IMG/VR virus record: IMGVR_UViG_3300044225_000165
Location: 1-29,594 of that record
Reading direction: 5' to 3' (one strand)
Origin: a virus
DNA: 29,594 nt
Both the position numbers and the translations under genes were made by a program. A model generated the notes under the pieces. It worked only from the letters and a program-made list of their open reading frames with translations. It had not been told where the DNA came from and made no database searches. This document shows positions 4,511 through 20,254 of the stretch, in pieces; the first letter of the stretch is position 1, and each line of letters starts with the position of its first letter.

Positions 4511-5466
4511 TTTCCCTTCTCCTGAAGTTTTGCAACCTCTAGTGCGAATCGCTCCATAGGTATGTTCATTTTTTTGGCAAAAGCCACCTGTCCCGGCGTT
4601 AATTCCACCGTCTTCTTCCGCCCACTTTTACTTGATGACCGTCCATTTGACGCAGGAGCAACAGGTTGAGCGTTTTGCCTCTGCTCCTGAAACTTTTGCG
4701 GAAAGTATTGACGCATTCGCTTATCTATTTCCGCGTAATATTCATCTGATGATGGATCAAACCCTTCAGCACCTACAATCTGTGTATGAATAGCTTCAGC
4801 GGCTTTACTCATAATCATATCACCGCTAGGCCCAAACCAAGCGTTACGAGACATCCAAGACTTTAACTTGGGGTCTAAATCTTGCTCTCTTGGAACTTGC
4901 GGAGATTGCAATTCTTGTTGAGGCGCTTCTTGTTGAACTTCTTGCTCTTGTTCGGATCTAGCTTTTTGTATGCGTAAACGTTCTTTTTCGATAGCTAGTT
5001 GAGACATTGCAGATTGCGCCTCTGCAACTTTAGTCATGTCACCAGCGTCATACGCTTCCTGCATAGCCTTCTTAACAGCAGCCTCTTGTGTTTCTACACG
5101 AGCGCCATACTCACTGACATACCCTTTGTCCAAGTCAGAGAGGCGTTTTTTCATTTCCTCGTTTTGTTGTTGGTACTGTTTATTTTGTTCTTGGACCTGT
5201 CTAGCATAGGCATACGCTGCTTCACTCTCTTCAAGAGCTTGCTTACGTTTTGCTGTAAGTTGATTAATACGCTTTTGAACGTTTTCGCTATAGTTTTCAA
5301 GCTCTGAAGAATCATCTTCCTGTACAATTGTACTGCTTTTTTCTTCAGAATCTGGCTGAACTTCAACAGATTGTTCGGCAACAGCCGCAGGTTGTGCATC
5401 ATCTTCTATCTCAAAAGAAACGGATTCCTGTTCAGGTTCTTTTTGCATTAACTCATTTGCACTCAT
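4507..5466 (-). CDS. Putative scaffolding protein
   Basis: This 319-aa, strongly charged, Gln/Glu/Lys-rich protein has an acidic N-terminal third (many Glu, Asp, Ser). A long predicted coiled coil (ENVQKRINQLTAKRKQALEE ... YARQVQEQNKQYQQQNEEMK) spans roughly residues 60-190, with a Gln/Pro linker (QQEAPQQELQSPQVPREQDL). The C-terminal part is conserved (WMSRNAWFGPSGDMIMSKAA, then GQVAFAKKMNIPMERFALEV). This architecture and the place just before the head genes are characteristic of phage capsid scaffolds, which line the prohead interior and leave on maturation. The ribosome site is AGGAG. No protease is evident nearby. Confidence 0.75.
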   Translation of the reverse strand: MSANELMQKEPEQESVSFEIEDDAQPAAVAEQSVEVQPDSEEKSSTIVQEDDSSELENYSENVQKRINQLTAKRKQALEESEAAYAYARQVQEQNKQYQQQNEEMKKRLSDLDKGYVSEYGARVETQEAAVKKAMQEAYDAGDMTKVAEAQSAMSQLAIEKERLRIQKARSEQEQEVQQEAPQQELQSPQVPREQDLDPKLKSWMSRNAWFGPSGDMIMSKAAEAIHTQIVGAEGFDPSSDEYYAEIDKRMRQYFPQKFQEQRQNAQPVAPASNGRSSSKSGRKKTVELTPGQVAFAKKMNIPMERFALEVAKLQEKGK

Positions 5467-5484: not shown

Positions 5485-5967
5485 CTATACATAGGAAATA
5501 TCAGCAGGGTCAAGTATGGTAGCTATAACATTATCATCATTTATGAGCCTTACCTCTAAACCATCCACTTTAAATCTATTTCCAGCATATCTTCCCATTA
5601 ATACCCATGATTTTTCACAACACCATGGCCCTGATGGGAATTTATTTTCGTCTGTATAAGCATCAGGACCAACTTTCACGACATAAGCCGCAACAGTTGC
5701 ATGATTTTCACGATCACGAACAGACTCTGGAATTATAATTCCACCAGCAGTCTTAGGTTTCATGTAATAGGGTATAACAAGAAGCCTGTATCCAACAGGA
5801 ACAGGCAGTCTATCCATGACAGAGACATCCATCTCTGAAGGATCCTTAGTGTTCATATCGTCGTGTTCTGGATTATCAAAGCCCTTCGATATATCCTTCG
5901 GCACCTCACTTACTGGTGCTGTAGGTTTACTTGCCATCCTCTCTGGGACGAATAGTTTTTTAGCCAT
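5485..5967 (-). CDS. GroES-like (Cpn10) co-chaperonin with N-terminal extension
   Basis: This 160-aa protein has a ~55-residue hydrophilic extension followed by a Cpn10-type domain. PVPVGYRLLVIPYYMKPKTA at about residues 55-74 matches the first GroES strand (PLxDRVxV). AGGIIIPES at 74-82 matches the GroES mobile loop, in which a hydrophobic tripeptide binds GroEL. KVGPDAYTDE, a W...VLMGRYAGNRFKVDG segment and a C-terminal INDDNVIATILDP match the rest of the barrel (GroES ends similarly with ...DILAIVE). Phage co-chaperonins such as T4 gp31 replace GroES so that host GroEL can fold the capsid protein; that is the likely role here, inferred from the domain and the capsid-module position. It overlaps the upstream gene by 8 nt (ATGGCTAA). 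Confidence 0.8.
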   Translation of the reverse strand: MAKKLFVPERMASKPTAPVSEVPKDISKGFDNPEHDDMNTKDPSEMDVSVMDRLPVPVGYRLLVIPYYMKPKTAGGIIIPESVRDRENHATVAAYVVKVGPDAYTDENKFPSGPWCCEKSWVLMGRYAGNRFKVDGLEVRLINDDNVIATILDPADISYV

Positions 5968-15391: not shown

Positions 15392-15772
15392 TCATTCTTC
15401 AAACTTTGACAACAGATACTCAAGTTCCTTCTTTGACTGCTGCAAAACCTTGTCCATTTGAGCGTCTGCACCCTCTATGCCGCCCAACGCATCACATAGT
15501 CTACTTATACGCTCACGGTCAAAGGACGTTAGACTCTTGTCAGGATGTGGCGCTACACGAAATATGCCGTCAGCATTGTTGTACTCCATCCAACGCACAG
15601 CTAACTCAGCAGAACGCGGAATGCTCTGCTCACCCTTTTCATAATAACAATACATACGATGGCTCACACCCAAAGTACGAGCCATCGCCATTTGTGTCAT
15701 GTTTAACGACTTACGCTTGTCTATAAGCATCTTGCCGCTCCACATGCTGTATGAGTCTTTAGCCTTGTGCAT
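15392..15772 (-). CDS. XRE-family HTH regulator
   Basis: This is a 126-aa protein when started at ATG 15770-15772, which has GGAGG 6 nt upstream; the longer frame begins with a TTG that overlaps that site. An XRE/Cro-type helix-turn-helix lies at about residues 15-62: MLIDKRKSLNMTQMAMARTL, GVSHRMYCYYEKGEQSIP, and then ELAVRWMEY. The C-terminal half (FDRERISRLCDALGGIEGAD, then DKVLQQSKKELEYLLSKFEE) looks like an oligomerising coiled coil. It overlaps the upstream 83-aa gene by 14 nt. As the only clear regulator here it is a candidate to bind the GCAATGATTGC palindromes found upstream, which is untested inference. Confidence 0.8.
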   Translation of the reverse strand: MHKAKDSYSMWSGKMLIDKRKSLNMTQMAMARTLGVSHRMYCYYEKGEQSIPRSAELAVRWMEYNNADGIFRVAPHPDKSLTSFDRERISRLCDALGGIEGADAQMDKVLQQSKKELEYLLSKFEE

Positions 15773-16010
15773 CTCCAACCTCCGCCAACATGCCAGCTTC
15801 CATCATGTCGGCTGTGAAGTGATCAATGCTGTCAAACCTCATAGGCTTGCCGCTCCAATCGCATGCAGACAACGCCGCCGTGCGAAGGAACGAGTGATCG
15901 TCAGGAAACGCCCACTTCGACCTTGACTTCCATACATCCAAGAACGCAGAAGCGTTCTCCGCTGTAAATTCTATAGGATCTTCGCTGATCCTTAGTTCAA
16001 ACCTCTTCAT
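15759..16010 (-). CDS. Small hypothetical protein co-transcribed with the XRE regulator
   Basis: This 83-aa protein starts at ATG 16008-16010, chosen because AAAGGAGGG lies just upstream. The longer frame would run through a hairpin in the leader. The sequence MKRFELRISEDPIEFTAENA, then SAFLDVWKSRSKWAFPDDHS and HFTADMMEAGMLAEVGDAQG, shows a strand followed by helices and no recognised domain. Codon use and ribosome site are good. It is the first gene after the 16.0-16.4 kb non-coding region and overlaps the regulator, so it may be a partner or merely co-regulated. Confidence 0.7.
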   Translation of the reverse strand: MKRFELRISEDPIEFTAENASAFLDVWKSRSKWAFPDDHSFLRTAALSACDWSGKPMRFDSIDHFTADMMEAGMLAEVGDAQG

Positions 16011-16381: not shown

Positions 16382-16409
16382 AAAAAGAAAGGCCGCCAAC
16401 GGCGGCCTT
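16382..16409 (-). terminator. Rho-independent terminator of the amidoligase unit
   Basis: In the minus direction AAGGCCGCC, a 3-nt GTT loop and GGCGGCCTT form a perfect 9-bp stem, followed by TCTTTTTG. It lies 24 nt after the amidoligase stop codon. Confidence 0.85.
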
Positions 16410-16432
16410 GTCTCGGATTATGCTTGACTAGT

Positions 16433-17623
16433 TTATGACAGACTAGCGCGGCGCTGATTGAAGTATTCAAACGTTTGATCATCAATACCTGCCCATATTG
16501 ATGTAACGCCTATTCTGTTTTCGGGATAAAGCGCAACGCCGCCAGCAATTTGTGTTGTTACTTGCTGCAATACCTCATAACCATTCAGATCGTGTTCACC
16601 ATTTGATGAACCATAGCGATGACCAAATGTTTGTTGCGTATGACAGACAATTGCAGCATCACCATGTGAACGGCGCATTTCAGATATGCGAGCGCGAATT
16701 GTATCAGCAGACCATCCGGTAGCATTCATGATTTCTTGCGTAGTCGCGCCACCATCACGACGAATAGTCGCCCACATAACGCCAATGCGCGACCCATTAC
16801 GATATGGCATTGCTGGCGTTTCCATCGTTGTTTCTGCTGGCGATACATAATCAAGACGTTGGTTATCGCTATGTCTAAACATGCCATCAATCAAAACGCA
16901 CCATGCATCAAGCTTTGCAATATCCAATGTGGCTTGGTGTTGACGAAATTCCATCGTTTGATGGGTCGACCATGTGTTGAGCGATACCGCGCTGAACTTG
17001 CCGCCAAGAATATTATTCATGTGAGAAATGCTTTCAGCATTGGCGAATTCATTGGCATGTGTACCGCCAAACGCAACACGGCGAATGCAACGGCAAAAAC
17101 GTGAAACGTCCGAATGGTGACTGGCACGGCGCGATGGTGCCAAAATGCCGTCAATATCTGAATGGTGCGTTGCATAGCGTTGTATAACATCACGCGCCAA
17201 AGCAATTGGCATAATGTCATGACACTGGTTATCAGCTGGCATAAAATAGGCGTTGCGGTCACGCATTAACTGTTTTGATTGACGCCAAAAATCGCGCGGC
17301 GAAATATCCTTAACAGCGCGATTTCCTACATGTACATGTAAACCGCAACCGCGTTTTGATACCTTGCCGCCATTGCTTTCGACAAATTGCAAAACCGCCG
17401 CAATGTCATCTTTCGCGCCACCAGCCATATGCAATGGCATTGGTGGGAATACCAATTCAAAATCAACATTCGGTGATGCATCCGATTTTACATGTACAAA
17501 ATCAAAACCTGCGTTGTTCAATTCCTGTTGCCAAGTATTGATTGAGCGATAATTTCCTATTTCGTTGTGACCCTCAATCTCAATACCGCCAGTCAAGAAG
17601 CTTGTGTTTGTTAAGTAAGACAT
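16433..17623 (-). CDS. Putative amidoligase (Amidoligase_2 family) fused to a winged helix
   Basis: This is a 396-aa protein. The N-terminal domain has the amidoligase_2 signatures: GGIEIEGHNE at 12-21, SDASPNVDFELVFPPM at 47-62 and GCGLHVHVG at 92-100. A late VSLNTWSTHQTMEFRQHQAT at 213-232 completes the series, in which the acidic and His residues correspond to the metal-ATP site of this ATP-grasp-like COOH-NH2 ligase fold. Residues about 280-330 (IGVMWATIRRDGGATTQEIM, NATGWSADTIRARISEMRRS) look like the DUF3489-type winged helix, an unusual fusion. The family is predicted to join a carboxylate to an amine using ATP; the substrate here is unknown. It is a single-gene unit with its own terminator, and a GCAATGATTGC palindrome lies upstream. 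Confidence 0.8.
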   Translation of the reverse strand: MSYLTNTSFLTGGIEIEGHNEIGNYRSINTWQQELNNAGFDFVHVKSDASPNVDFELVFPPMPLHMAGGAKDDIAAVLQFVESNGGKVSKRGCGLHVHVGNRAVKDISPRDFWRQSKQLMRDRNAYFMPADNQCHDIMPIALARDVIQRYATHHSDIDGILAPSRRASHHSDVSRFCRCIRRVAFGGTHANEFANAESISHMNNILGGKFSAVSLNTWSTHQTMEFRQHQATLDIAKLDAWCVLIDGMFRHSDNQRLDYVSPAETTMETPAMPYRNGSRIGVMWATIRRDGGATTQEIMNATGWSADTIRARISEMRRSHGDAAIVCHTQQTFGHRYGSSNGEHDLNGYEVLQQVTTQIAGGVALYPENRIGVTSIWAGIDDQTFEYFNQRRASLS

Positions 17624-17687
17624 TGTTTTTACTACCTTTTTTTCAGTTTGATAGACGCACCATTGCGCCAGTCCCTAAACCTAACAC

Positions 17688-17698
17688 GCAATCATTGC
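17688..17698 (-). promoter_or_regulatory. Operator-like palindrome upstream of the amidoligase
   Basis: GCAATCATTGC on the plus strand (GCAATGATTGC on the minus strand) is identical to the palindrome inside two good promoters at 18752-18780 and 19279-19307. Around it the best boxes are TTGCAA, 17 nt, TTAGGT, which is a weak -10. The start codon is about 65 nt downstream. Confidence 0.55.
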
Positions 17699-17717
17699 AG
17701 ATTGCAAGCCATATAAA

Positions 17718-17731
17718 GCACAATTGTACTG
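17718..17731 (+). repeat. Dispersed ACAATTGTACTG repeat, copy
   Basis: GCACAATTGTACTG shares the core of the dispersed GAACAATTGTACTGG family. It sits about 20 nt upstream of the amidoligase operator-like palindrome, in non-coding DNA. Confidence 0.5.
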
Positions 17732-17932
17732 TTTTTTTTCAGCTCACAATGTAGACGTTTTATAGGATGGAAATATTAAACCGGAAAAAATAAAAATTGC
17801 GCTGCGTTGCATTTGGTAAACAATGCTTACCTTTTATCAATCCGCCAAAAAGTATCACATGGTACAAATACAAACACGAATAATTATACGGGTAAACCCC
17901 GAACCCGAACCCCGACCCCGAAAACCCGACAC

Positions 17933-17964
17933 AAAAAAAGGGCCGGAACCCGAAGCTCCGACCC
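17933..17964 (-). terminator. Rho-independent terminator of the GGCT unit
   Basis: In the minus direction GGGTCGGA pairs with TCCGGCCC (8 bp with one G-U pair) around a 9-nt loop, and a run of seven T follows. It starts 20 nt after the GGCT stop codon. Confidence 0.8.
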
Positions 17965-17983
17965 GATTAACCCGAACAATTCA

Positions 17984-18412
17984 CTATATCCATGCTGTAT
18001 CCCGATCCTCCCCGATGTATGTTGTGTAATCCCGAGCGTTGTATAGTTCCGATTCGTCAAGCCCGAAGTCCCGATACCCGTCAAGTATTGTCTTGAAGTA
18101 TAGCGGACTGGGATCCCGATACCCGCCGCTGTTCATGCGGTAGGTCATCATCCCGTTGATCATCACCTGACGATACAGCCCCGAACTTACACCCTCGTAT
18201 CTATCAAGAGCGGCCTCGTCCTCTGGCCCAATCTCCCATATACCGACAGGTAACAAGTCTTCAGGTTCCCCTATCTCAATATCGGCAACCCCGCGAAAGA
18301 CTAAACGCCAGCCCGGAAAATAAGCAGACCCCAACGGCTTGGCGTTAGGGCTGCGTATCGCCATCTGGGCCATATTCAAATTCGACCCATAAGCAAAATA
18401 TAGCCGCTTCAT
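17984..18412 (-). CDS. Gamma-glutamylcyclotransferase-like (GGCT/AIG2 fold) protein
   Basis: This is a 142-aa protein from ATG 18410-18412 (MKRLYFAYGSNLN...); GGAGGTAAAG immediately precedes it, whereas the ATG four codons earlier lies on top of that site. The substrate-binding signature YGSNL is at residues 8-12. After FPGWRLVFRGVADIE, the motif LDRYEGV places the catalytic-type Glu at residue 73, as in the LDxxEGV of GGCT enzymes. The length is typical for a single AIG2-like domain. Family members release gamma-glutamyl groups as 5-oxoproline or cleave gamma-glutamylamine bonds. It starts 2 nt after the stop of the 100-aa gene, one unit away from the amidoligase, a pairing expected for amide-bond formation and removal. 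Confidence 0.85.
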   Translation of the reverse strand: MKRLYFAYGSNLNMAQMAIRSPNAKPLGSAYFPGWRLVFRGVADIEIGEPEDLLPVGIWEIGPEDEAALDRYEGVSSGLYRQVMINGMMTYRMNSGGYRDPSPLYFKTILDGYRDFGLDESELYNARDYTTYIGEDRDTAWI

Positions 18413-18414
18413 CT

Positions 18415-18717
18415 TTACCTCCATTCATTCACGACTTCTTCACCAACGATGTAAGCATACATATTCACTAGTTTTTCTGGATCAGATAAGTCTGTTGTCA
18501 CTTCACCAAAGTTGTCTTGCTCGTAAGTCTTGATGGCATCAATGATGTCGAAAACTTTATCGCCCATCCATTCCTTGGCTTTGTGTGTTCCAATAATGTA
18601 GTAGTCCATGTTGAAAGCGTGATGATGCCAGTCGTCCTTGTTGGCTTGTAGCCACTCAGCGTCCTGCTCTTCCATCCACTCAACAAAATGCTCTTTGATC
18701 TCTTGATACTTGTACAT
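18415..18717 (-). CDS. Acidic conserved phage protein (100 aa), partner of GGCT
   Basis: This is a 100-aa, acidic, aromatic-rich protein: FVEWMEEQDAEWLQANKDDW, HHHAFNMDYYIIGTHKAKEW, and YEQDNFGEVTTDLSDPEKLV...MYAYIVGEEVV. I recall closely similar proteins with an LSDPEKxxNMYAYIxGEE segment in several unrelated phages and without function. There is no membrane segment and no zinc site. It is the first gene of the unit expressed from the promoter at 18752-18780, and its stop lies 2 nt before the GGCT start. It could be a substrate or partner of the amidoligase/GGCT chemistry, but that is speculation. Confidence 0.75.
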   Translation of the reverse strand: MYKYQEIKEHFVEWMEEQDAEWLQANKDDWHHHAFNMDYYIIGTHKAKEWMGDKVFDIIDAIKTYEQDNFGEVTTDLSDPEKLVNMYAYIVGEEVVNEWR

Positions 18718-18751
18718 TGTTTTTTACCCTTTTCTGGTTTCGATAGATATA

Positions 18752-18780
18752 TAAATAGCAATCATTGCAATCAATGTCAA
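18752..18780 (-). promoter_or_regulatory. Promoter with embedded GCAATGATTGC operator (GGCT unit)
   Basis: The minus strand reads TTGACA (18775-18780), 17 nt, then TATTTATATA at the -10. The palindrome GCAATGATTGC (18758-18768) fills the spacer and abuts the -10 box, where a bound protein would block RNA polymerase. The 100-aa gene starts about 27 nt after the expected transcription start. Confidence 0.8.
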
Positions 18781-18843
18781 CAAGAAAAAGCACAAAAAAA
18801 AGTTTTTTTTTGCAGCCGTGCTGCGGACTACGGCGCGCGAAGA

Positions 18844-18868
18844 CAATAAGAACAATTGTACTGGTTCT
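18844..18868 (+). repeat. Dispersed GAACAATTGTACTGG repeat, copy with CAATAAG flank
   Basis: CAATAAGAACAATTGTACTGGTTC matches 20480-20505 in all but a few bases. That other copy is the start of the zinc-ribbon gene. Read on the minus strand this copy would encode NQYNCSYC, compared with NQSNCSYC in the gene, and then runs to a stop. It may be a gene remnant or one copy of a wider repeat family. Confidence 0.5.
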
Positions 18869-18879
18869 GAGCTGCGGAC

Positions 18880-18906
18880 AAAAAAATACCCGGCTCCCGC
18901 CGGGTA
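18880..18906 (-). terminator. Rho-independent terminator of the two-micro-gene unit
   Basis: In the minus direction TACCCGGC, a 4-nt GGGA loop and GCCGGGTA form a perfect 8-bp stem, followed by TTTTTTTG. It lies 17 nt after the stop of the 56-aa gene. Confidence 0.88.
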
Positions 18907-18923
18907 CTTTGAAATTGTTCTGG

Positions 18924-19094
18924 TTAGATTCGCTTCCATCTCATCCAAACTCCCGTAACCATCATCCCGACTCCGATCATCAGCAGCCCGATGTGAATCC
19001 AGAAAGCTTGAAAGTTGTGGGGCATTGGCTCTACCCCCGACATCAACAGCACGAGGACGAAACCGAGTCCCGTTACTAGATCTCCCTTAGTCAT
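18924..19094 (-). CDS. Small two-TM membrane protein (56 aa)
   Basis: The start ATG 19092-19094 (MTKGDLVTGLGFVLVLLMSG...) overlaps the stop of the preceding 53-aa gene by 8 nt, which favours it over a longer frame. There are two hydrophobic helices, LVTGLGFVLVLLMSGV and IHIGLLMIGVGMMVTGVWM, separated by a short loop with PMPHNFQAFW, and a basic tail RWKRI that predicts a cytoplasmic C-terminus. No family is recognised. It is the last gene of a unit bounded by a promoter (19279-19307) and a terminator (18880-18906), in the manner of a moron. A role in host membrane modification or superinfection exclusion is speculative. Confidence 0.65.
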   Translation of the reverse strand: MTKGDLVTGLGFVLVLLMSGVEPMPHNFQAFWIHIGLLMIGVGMMVTGVWMRWKRI

Positions 19095-19248
19095 TACGAC
19101 CAACATGCACAACATAAATAATTGTGTCGTCTGGTCTTTGCGAAGAATTAATCATTCTCTCCTCTGTAATCTCTCTTGATCCACGCTCGTTAGCAAATTC
19201 CAACGCTTGTTCAAACGACTTAAAATTGTATCTTTCTACCTTTGGCAT
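19087..19248 (-). CDS. Small hydrophilic protein (53 aa)
   Basis: The frame is short but strongly supported: AAAGGAGGTAAGA precedes ATG 19246-19248, and a good promoter lies about 30 nt upstream. The sequence has VERYNFKSFEQALEFANERG, then ITEERMINSSQRPDDTIIYV and VHVGRND, a helix followed by a strand, with no Cys and no membrane segment. There is no recognised domain; the beta strand IIYVVHV at the end may pair in a dimer. The end overlaps the start of the 56-aa membrane gene by 8 nt, so the two are probably translationally coupled and act together. Confidence 0.7.
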   Translation of the reverse strand: MPKVERYNFKSFEQALEFANERGSREITEERMINSSQRPDDTIIYVVHVGRND

Positions 19249-19278
19249 TCTTACCTCCTTTGTTTAACTTACCTATTA

Positions 19279-19307
19279 TATATAGCAATCATTGCAAAGC
19301 ATGTCAA
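19279..19307 (-). promoter_or_regulatory. Promoter with embedded GCAATGATTGC operator (micro-gene unit)
   Basis: The minus strand reads TTGACA (19302-19307), 17 nt, TATATA, with TATAAT-like bases continuing. The palindrome GCAATGATTGC at 19285-19295 abuts the -10 box exactly as in the promoter at 18752-18780. The CTTGTTGACA upstream of the boxes is also identical between the two. Confidence 0.82.
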
Positions 19308-19403
19308 CAAGAAAATAATATTTTTTTATCATACAGATTGTCCTCGACTGCCTCTTCTTGTTTTCCCAACGCAGAGATTACCGCTGCTATCTATCCGTAA
19401 GAC

Positions 19404-19418
19404 GAACAATTGTACTGG
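19404..19418 (+). repeat. Dispersed GAACAATTGTACTGG repeat, copy
   Basis: This is an exact 15-base copy, identical to 18850-18864, and lies in non-coding DNA. Confidence 0.6.
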
Positions 19419-19474
19419 TGAATCGAAGCTCACAAGGGAGCTACACTCTAACGGGTATGCAGCTCCCAAAACCA

Positions 19475-19488
19475 GAACAATTGTACTG
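19475..19488 (+). repeat. Dispersed GAACAATTGTACTG repeat, copy
   Basis: This copy matches the family over 14 bases and then diverges. It lies 71 nt from the copy at 19404, in the same orientation and in non-coding DNA. Confidence 0.6.
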
Positions 19489-19516
19489 TGTCTTCCCGGC
19501 CCCGAAGATCCCGAAC

Positions 19517-19548
19517 AAAAAAATCCCCGGCAGCGACGACCACCGGGG
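19517..19548 (-). terminator. Rho-independent terminator of the small-terminase unit
   Basis: In the minus direction CCCCGG, a 12-nt loop and CCGGGG form the stem, followed by ATTTTTTTG. It lies about 180 nt after the terS stop codon. The stem is short but GC-only. Confidence 0.7.
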
Positions 19549-19641
19549 CAGGTTCTCTAGGGAGGAAGCCCGATCATGGCCCGATCCCGAAGGCCGAGTC
19601 AAGCCCGAACCCCGAACCCGATGGCCCCGAAGCCCGAACCC

Positions 19642-19662
19642 GAACAATTCTACTTATGCAGC
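19642..19662 (+). repeat. Dispersed repeat variant GAACAATTCTACTTATGCAGC
   Basis: This copy matches 24114-24134 in 20 of 21 bases, although the two lie 4.5 kb apart. The other copy spans the stop codon of the TSCPD-like gene, while this one is non-coding. Confidence 0.55.
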
Positions 19663-19726
19663 TCCCCGAAACCCCGGTCAAAACTGTTCGACCCCCTCGC
19701 GCGGAGTGTTTATGGAATTTTATGGG

Positions 19727-20254
19727 TTATCCGCTATCTTGTGCTATATCTTGTGGGTCATGATCTATTATACCCATATCTGGCGTTATATTCTTCATGC
19801 GAGACTGCGCTAACCTGCGGAACTCCTCTAATTTGTTCGTAATTTCTTCTTTAGTAGAAGCTGTGACATCCTCTTTGATAACGTGCTGCTTGTTAACGAG
19901 TAGTCCCGCTGCCTTCAAACGCAACTCTTCAGCCCGTAATGCTTCGCTAAACTTACCCATCTCCCACGCTTGATCCCGAATCTTTTTCAGATCCCGAATA
20001 GATTTATCAATCGTCACCCCGAACCTAGCCTGTGTCTCCAATCTCATCTCTTGCAGACGCTCTGCAACGACTGGATTACGCAATAACCTGACAGCTTGCA
20101 CCGTAGGGTTTTTATACCCCGCTTGTCTCGCTGCCTCTGTCTGCGTCATATCCTTGTGCAGATAGTAATCCAGAAACTGTTGTTGTTGTGGCTTCAGGCG
20201 CTTCAGACCAGCTTCACGCTGTTCCTTTGGTAGATCTTCGCCGACCTTTGGCAT
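19727..20254 (-). CDS. terS: Terminase small subunit (TerS, Terminase_2-like)
   Basis: This 175-aa protein has a strong ribosome site (TAGGAGGGCAGT before ATG). The helix-turn-helix region LKPQQQQFLDYYLHKDMTQT...EAARQAGYKNPTVQAVRLLR...NPVVAERLQEM (about residues 20-70) is the classic Terminase_2 signature (LTxKQxxFvxxYl...ATxAAxxAGY...LLxNPxV). A long helix (SIRDLKKIRDQAWEMGKFSE...ALRAEELRLKAAGLL) suits ring oligomerisation. TerS recognises the packaging start on phage DNA and stimulates TerL. It lies 6.5 kb upstream of terL, separated by the accessory units, which is unusual. CCCGA-rich DNA lies directly downstream and inside its 3' half. Confidence 0.88.
   Translation of the reverse strand: MPKVGEDLPKEQREAGLKRLKPQQQQFLDYYLHKDMTQTEAARQAGYKNPTVQAVRLLRNPVVAERLQEMRLETQARFGVTIDKSIRDLKKIRDQAWEMGKFSEALRAEELRLKAAGLLVNKQHVIKEDVTASTKEEITNKLEEFRRLAQSRMKNITPDMGIIDHDPQDIAQDSG

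Follow-up and report, generated by a model that had tools for sequence, protein, structure and literature searches.

What a phage does with a predicted amide-forming ligase and a predicted gamma-glutamylcyclotransferase (GGCT) encoded side by side is the question raised by the IMG/VR virus record IMGVR_UViG_3300044225_000165, a stretch of 29,594 nucleotides whose full length is called the window here. The two genes were followed in the window and in its relatives, which are 52 distinct IMG/VR contigs that carry the amidoligase; a relative of 56 kb was also scanned. The reading that we favour, at even confidence, is that the pair is a reduced form of a known phage amidoligase-GGCT module, in which an ATP-dependent, amide-forming modification edited by GGCT serves in conflict between phages or between phage and host. 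What is new in this lineage is a winged-helix domain added to the amidoligase of a known pair, together with signs of block exchange of the pair.

The amidoligase and its C-terminal domain

The amidoligase gene (16433..17623, minus strand) encodes a protein of 396 amino acids (aa). The PF12224 (Amidoligase_2) profile matched residues 46-246 with 39.8 bits (cut-off 22; E 6e-10), and it was found in 30 of 32 amidoligase homologues at E 0.01. Among these 32 homologues, which go down to approximately 40% identity, E15, E17, E56, H96, E225 and R227 are invariant. The motifs are GxExE (G13, E15, E17), E56, H96xH98 and E225xR227, and the invariant residues are those expected for an active site like that of glutamine synthetase (GS) and glutamate-cysteine ligase (GCS). 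Structure prediction, which had been suggested as a check in a preliminary description of this DNA, gave a GS/GCS-like fold: for the AlphaFold (AF2) model (predicted local distance difference test score, pLDDT, 86; predicted template modelling score, pTM, 0.72), the top PDB structure match was YbdK (1r8g, E 3e-5), glutamine synthetases aligned with Z scores of 11-12 (best 11.8, root-mean-square deviation 3.5 over 215 aligned residues), and phage amidoligases matched at approximately E 1e-8. A phmmer search with the amidoligase against PDB sequences gave no match. The window amidoligase shares the carboxylate-amine ligase fold and the GxExE and ExR motifs with YbdK, a glutamate-cysteine ligase-like enzyme, and with glutamine synthetase, although its identity to them is just about 8-16%. 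Taken together, profile, motifs and predicted fold identify the 396-aa protein as a predicted amide-bond-forming Amidoligase_2 enzyme, the family to which the preliminary description had assigned it. Both the amidoligase and the GGCT are under purifying selection, with ratios of nonsynonymous to synonymous differences (pN/pS) of about 0.06-0.17 between the window and the relatives L005 and L008.

What the preliminary description had overlooked is a C-terminal winged helix-turn-helix (wHTH) of the DUF3489 type, at residues 266-352 (16568..16828, minus strand). It follows the catalytic N-terminal domain (residues 1-265; 16829..17623, minus strand), which contains the active-site motifs and is variable and exchanged between phages, with low identity even in near-identical ones. 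It precedes a C-terminal tail (residues 353-396; 16436..16567, minus strand) that is 29-95% identical to that of the relatives and forms a helix at residues 382-395 in the model. The PF11994 (DUF3489) profile matched residues 275-320 with 30.9 bits (cut-off 29.5; E 3e-7) and was found in all 32 amidoligase homologues of the lineage at E 0.01. The wHTH was more conserved than the N-domain in 98% of 496 amidoligase pairs, and the HDLNGY sequence in its C-terminal part was invariant in the 32 homologues. When the C-terminal 135 residues were modelled alone, three helices and a beta-hairpin were obtained; the PDB matches of the wHTH alone were weak and mostly to winged-helix proteins (best E 0.17, none under E 0.1). 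Scans of four other phage amidoligases (Ruminococcus phage, LUZ24, Kovu and Porphyromonas phage) did not detect DUF3489, and tblastn of the wHTH part against phage records gave no match. No amidoligase-wHTH fusion was found in the literature, which is a weak negative since the search was largely limited to openly accessible papers. The DUF3489 wHTH is likely to be a docking or nucleic-acid-binding part.

The gamma-glutamylcyclotransferase

The second gene (17984..18412, minus strand) encodes a 142-aa protein of the GGCT/AIG2 fold. It matched phrog_2520, gamma-glutamyl cyclotransferase, with an E value of 1.9e-21 and human GGCT (2pn7) with an E value of 9e-6; PF06094 was barely above its cut-off (24.0 versus 22.8 bits) and PF13772 was below its cut-off (25.6 versus 27 bits). 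In humans, GGCT acts on small gamma-glutamyl compounds. The Glu of the LDRYEGV motif aligns with the Glu of SLDEQEGV in human GGCT, and both this Glu and the YGSNL motif were invariant in 13 GGCT homologues. These results identify the 142-aa protein as a predicted GGCT with the catalytic Glu kept. Both the family and the start at 18412 had been proposed in the preliminary description, and both are borne out: the relatives begin at the same position, and a GGAGG precedes it.

An intact GGCT gene lies shortly upstream of the amidoligase in 44 of the 52 relatives, and the gene is lacking in five and broken by one TGA in three. Since GGCT is lost or interrupted in 8/52 relatives, removal or editing by GGCT is not obligatory. 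In the relatives L065-L069, the 100-aa gene that precedes GGCT in the window and the amidoligase gene are both present, and GGCT is not between them. In L094 (3402-3830), L097 (3395-3823) and L096, a single in-frame TGA breaks the GGCT frame where Trp39 is otherwise conserved; it was found in these three contigs only. Purifying selection is seen on either side of this TGA (before it, pN 0; after it, pN 0.054 and pS 0.44), although the terS, amidoligase and hth128 genes of the same contigs end with TGA. Readthrough or recoding at Trp39 is possible, the alternative being a shared nonsense mutation.

Co-occurrence and exchange of the two genes

The pairing of the two genes is beyond chance. In addition to its conservation in the relatives, the amidoligase lies 32-1201 bp from GGCT in 38 of the 40 GGCT-bearing phage records listed, which come mostly from gut phages of one group. 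In a Ruminococcus phage, the amidoligase adjoins GGCT 1.3 kb from terL, and amidoligase-GGCT modules are also found in the unrelated phages LUZ24 (gp16-gp22) and Kovu (gp96-98). The novelty that the preliminary description implied for the pair was too high, since the pair has been described repeatedly: in PSA-HP1, RIO-1, phiEco32, LUZ24 and other phages (PMC5498523), in phage U17 (PMC11945000), in Arthrobacter cluster AL phages (PMC5513430) and in Clostridium clostridioforme prophages (PMC11318856).

Within the lineage, exchange of the amidoligase N-domain takes place between phages that are 97-100% identical in the genes next to it. As neighbours we used terS and hth128, the latter encoding a conserved XRE-type helix-turn-helix (HTH) protein of 128 aa (15392-15778); N-domains were 34-44% identical in phages with 99-100% identity in both. 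For L044/L090, identity was 100% for terS, 99% for hth128 and 44% for the N-domain, and for L009/L097 it was 99% for terS, 100% for hth128, 97% for the 100-aa protein and 34% for the N-domain. In these two pairs and in L056/L084, DNA identity breaks off in or before GGCT; it is regained where the wHTH begins in L044/L090 and L056/L084, and just past the amidoligase stop codon in L009/L097. These are signs that phages which are otherwise near-identical swap the amidoligase-GGCT pair as one block. The distances of the N-domains and of the GGCT proteins were correlated (Mantel r 0.78), also when terS and hth128 were controlled (r 0.70, P 5e-4); the partial Mantel test is liberal, so that the direction is clear but the P value should not be read literally. 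For the amidoligase and hth128, a gene at a comparable distance on its opposite side, the correlation given terS was not significant (r 0.09, P 0.19).

Transcription units and shared palindromes

The preliminary description had placed the two enzymes in separate promoter-terminator units. This is correct for the amidoligase, which has an intrinsic terminator at its 3' side (16389..16409, minus strand). The GGCT does not stand by itself: its unit, which ends at another intrinsic terminator (17940..17964, minus strand), also contains the open reading frame of an acidic 100-aa protein (18415..18717, minus strand; similar to phrog_10208, E 2e-19). The two genes form one unit because the Shine-Dalgarno sequence of GGCT (GGAGG) sits within the final codons of that 100-aa reading frame. 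The 100-aa protein is present in 38/52 relatives, where it is 71-99% conserved, and undetected in 14/52 relatives, all of which retain the amidoligase; it has homologues in Lactococcus and Enterococcus phages outside the listed amidoligase/GGCT records.

Both units share two palindrome types in their promoter regions. The amidoligase promoter region contains GCAATSATTGC and GTACAATTGT (17688..17729, minus strand). The promoter-like elements of the 100-aa/GGCT unit consist of TTGACA, the palindrome GCAATGATTGC in the spacer and a TATA-like -10 element (18750..18780, minus strand), with the palindrome ACAATTGTAC farther upstream (18852..18861). Palindromes of the ACAATTGTAC type have eight matches in the window versus 0.08 expected, among them sites at 5322, 16348, 17720, 18852, 19406 and 19477; these sites fall mostly between genes of the terS-amidoligase region, and relatives conserve them. 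GCAATSATTGC has three matches versus 0.07 expected. Upstream of the amidoligase, CAATTGT was found in 28/32 relatives (0.7 expected), and upstream of the 100-aa gene, CAATTGT was found in 20/20 and GCAATSATTGC in 18/20 relatives (0.02 expected), these counts being from related sequences and hence not independent. Because the shared palindromes are conserved upstream of both units, joint regulation of the two is supported, and hth128 may be the simplest candidate regulator. Co-occurrence, correlated divergence and shared promoter elements together support a functional link between the amidoligase and GGCT genes, as the preliminary description had supposed.

TCGGG pentamers are strongly clustered on the coding strand at 17898-20022 (minus strand), with 57 in the window versus 27.7 expected and 33 within this region. 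The cluster includes two G-quadruplex-type runs (17897-17927 and 19604-19641), and a TCGGG-rich spacer of the same kind is found in the relative L067. A packaging or regulatory role for this cluster near terS is possible.

Genomic setting

Nearly all genes of the window are on the minus strand, and the window is probably a fragment. It encodes terL, an SU10-like portal, a Cpn10 co-chaperonin, a capsid protein, a gene transfer agent (GTA)-type holin, a PD-(D/E)XK nuclease, an AAA protein and a helicase. The Cpn10 (GroES-like) gene lies in the head module (5485-5967; PF00166, E 1e-9) and is annotated in HTVC023P and DSL-LC04 as well. The TerL protein shares 54-62% identity with its counterparts in sequenced phages of 57-62 kb, among which are Phage DSL-LC04 and the Pelagibacter phages HTVC023P and HTVC027P. 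The lineage with the amidoligase-GGCT pair consists mostly of uncultured phages. Neither gene was found in the inspected genome regions of the cultured phages with the nearest TerL (HTVC023P, HTVC027P, 023Pt_psg01 and DSL-LC04), and the same four phages were absent from the amidoligase and GGCT match lists of phage records. When bacterial genomes were searched with the amidoligase alignment, no relative was found, and therefore no clue to a host or prophage. PADLOC gave no defence model for the amidoligase, GGCT or the 100-aa protein.

Discussion

In the reduced module that we favour, the amidoligase would use ATP to turn a carboxylate, most likely that of a glutamyl side chain or an amino acid, into an acyl phosphate, and would then join it to an amine, so that an amide is formed on a peptide-type substrate within the infected cell; the fold and the invariant active-site residues point to this step. 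The GGCT, if it acts as its family does, would remove or trim the gamma-glutamyl-amine products, with the glutamyl residue cyclised to 5-oxoproline, in an editing or recycling step that is missing in some relatives. The constant DUF3489 wHTH is fused to an exchangeable catalytic part. Modification of a host cell-wall peptide or of another host target, by which competing phages would be excluded or host functions blunted, would be the likely use. The class of chemistry of the pair is highly probable. The role in conflict, which we infer because it has been proposed for larger cassettes and because alleles are exchanged here, stands about evenly balanced. The published proposal is that the module modifies peptidoglycan and hinders superinfection, a proposed role and not an assayed activity (PMC5498523, PMC11945000), and peptidoglycan as the actual substrate is doubtful. 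It is a rather improbable extension of the reading that the wHTH, as the constant part, guides the enzyme to a partner or nucleic acid that stays the same, while the N-domain and its matching GGCT are swapped as a specificity block, so that each phage would mark or edit its host differently from its competitors.

Several points weigh against the favoured reading. A cell-wall role predicts GATase_6 and a COOH-NH2 ligase, and neither was found: GATase_6 (PF13522) gave 0/13 lineage records including the 56-kb one, with bacterial control genomes positive, and COOH-NH2 ligase (PF14395) gave 0/8 including the 56-kb one, with the LUZ24 control positive, in records that may be incomplete in both cases. 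No further amide ligase was detected in the 56-kb relative by a Pfam scan of most open reading frames of at least 90 aa without a close match in the window. An ATP-grasp search with PF08443 carries no weight either way: it gave no match in the lineage, but it missed the RimK-domain-annotated LUZ24 control too. A cell-wall enzyme does not need a nucleic-acid-type domain, the allele exchange is compatible with other variable targets as well, and linkage explains part of the correlation between GGCT and the amidoligase, which lie close together. Finally, the enzyme activities are predicted, and the substrate is not readable from sequence.

In a rival explanation, the wHTH would bring the amidoligase to DNA or the transcription machinery, and the target to be modified would be one bound to nucleic acid, for instance RNA polymerase, a nucleoid protein or a DNA base. 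The presence of DUF3489 in every homologue of the lineage, its greater conservation than that of the catalytic domain, the invariant HDLNGY and its non-detection in the Ruminococcus phage, LUZ24, Kovu and Porphyromonas phage enzymes are in line with this; however, the wHTH by itself gives weak structure matches, wHTH domains serve protein contacts too, and no DNA-base-modification gene was recognised in the scanned parts of the window or the 56-kb relative. Such a target is unlikely. We give a similarly low probability to a pair that synthesises and degrades a small gamma-glutamyl metabolite, such as a gamma-glutamyl amine, for buffering or signalling in infection. The nearest solved fold, YbdK, is a glutamate-cysteine-ligase-type enzyme, and the family of the matched human GGCT acts on small gamma-glutamyl compounds, but the loss or interruption of GGCT in eight relatives, an exchange between near-identical phages too frequent to be obviously expected of a small-metabolite enzyme, and a wHTH that such an enzyme would not need all argue the other way.

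The promoter palindromes allow the amidoligase to be seen as a trigger enzyme, whose wHTH would bind the sites in its own and the GGCT promoters and make expression dependent on substrate. The palindromes GAACAATTGTTC/GTACAATTGTAC and GCAATSATTGC do occur in both promoter regions, with conservation in relatives, but the XRE-type HTH protein is a simpler candidate regulator, and the GTACAATTGT element is also found away from both units (window 5322, 19406 and 19477); this explanation is very improbable. According to the preliminary description, the 100-aa protein could be what the amidoligase uses as substrate or carrier. Its operon shared with GGCT and its conservation where present would suit that role, but we rejected it as a substrate because of its patchy distribution among amidoligase-bearing relatives, and its Lactococcus and Enterococcus phage homologues likewise speak against the idea, which can hardly be credited.

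Phage amidoligase-GGCT modules are common and are called cell-wall modifiers by inference, with no substrate demonstrated in the literature surveyed. The peptidoglycan modification cassette of Pseudoalteromonas phages RIO-1 and PSA-HP1, Escherichia phage phiEco32, Pseudomonas phages LUZ24, PaP3 and tf, and Salinivibrio phage CW02 combines an amidoligase and GGCT in a tailed phage, as the window does, and the tf and CW02 amidoligases match the window amidoligase model by fold. It differs in that GATase_6 and COOH-NH2 ligase were not found in the window lineage, in that the window GGCT lies in a separate unit upstream of the amidoligase, and in that the LUZ24 amidoligase has no detected wHTH. 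In the gut-phage pair (Ca. Heliusvirales and C. clostridioforme LM41 prophages; PMC11318856), the genes are adjacent as in the window, and near terL in the Ruminococcus phage example, whereas the order in that phage is reversed, with the amidoligase before GGCT, and its 315-aa amidoligase shows no DUF3489. In Arthrobacter phages (cluster AL; Kovu gp96-98), a glutamine amidotransferase then follows in Kovu, whose amidoligase has no detected wHTH, unlike that of the window, while GGCT directly precedes the amidoligase as it does here (PMC5513430). Compared with these systems, a lineage with the two enzymes alone, a wHTH and block exchange represents a small, testable version of the module, and it provides allele pairs that occur naturally in near-identical backgrounds, relatives without GGCT and a clear boundary between domains.

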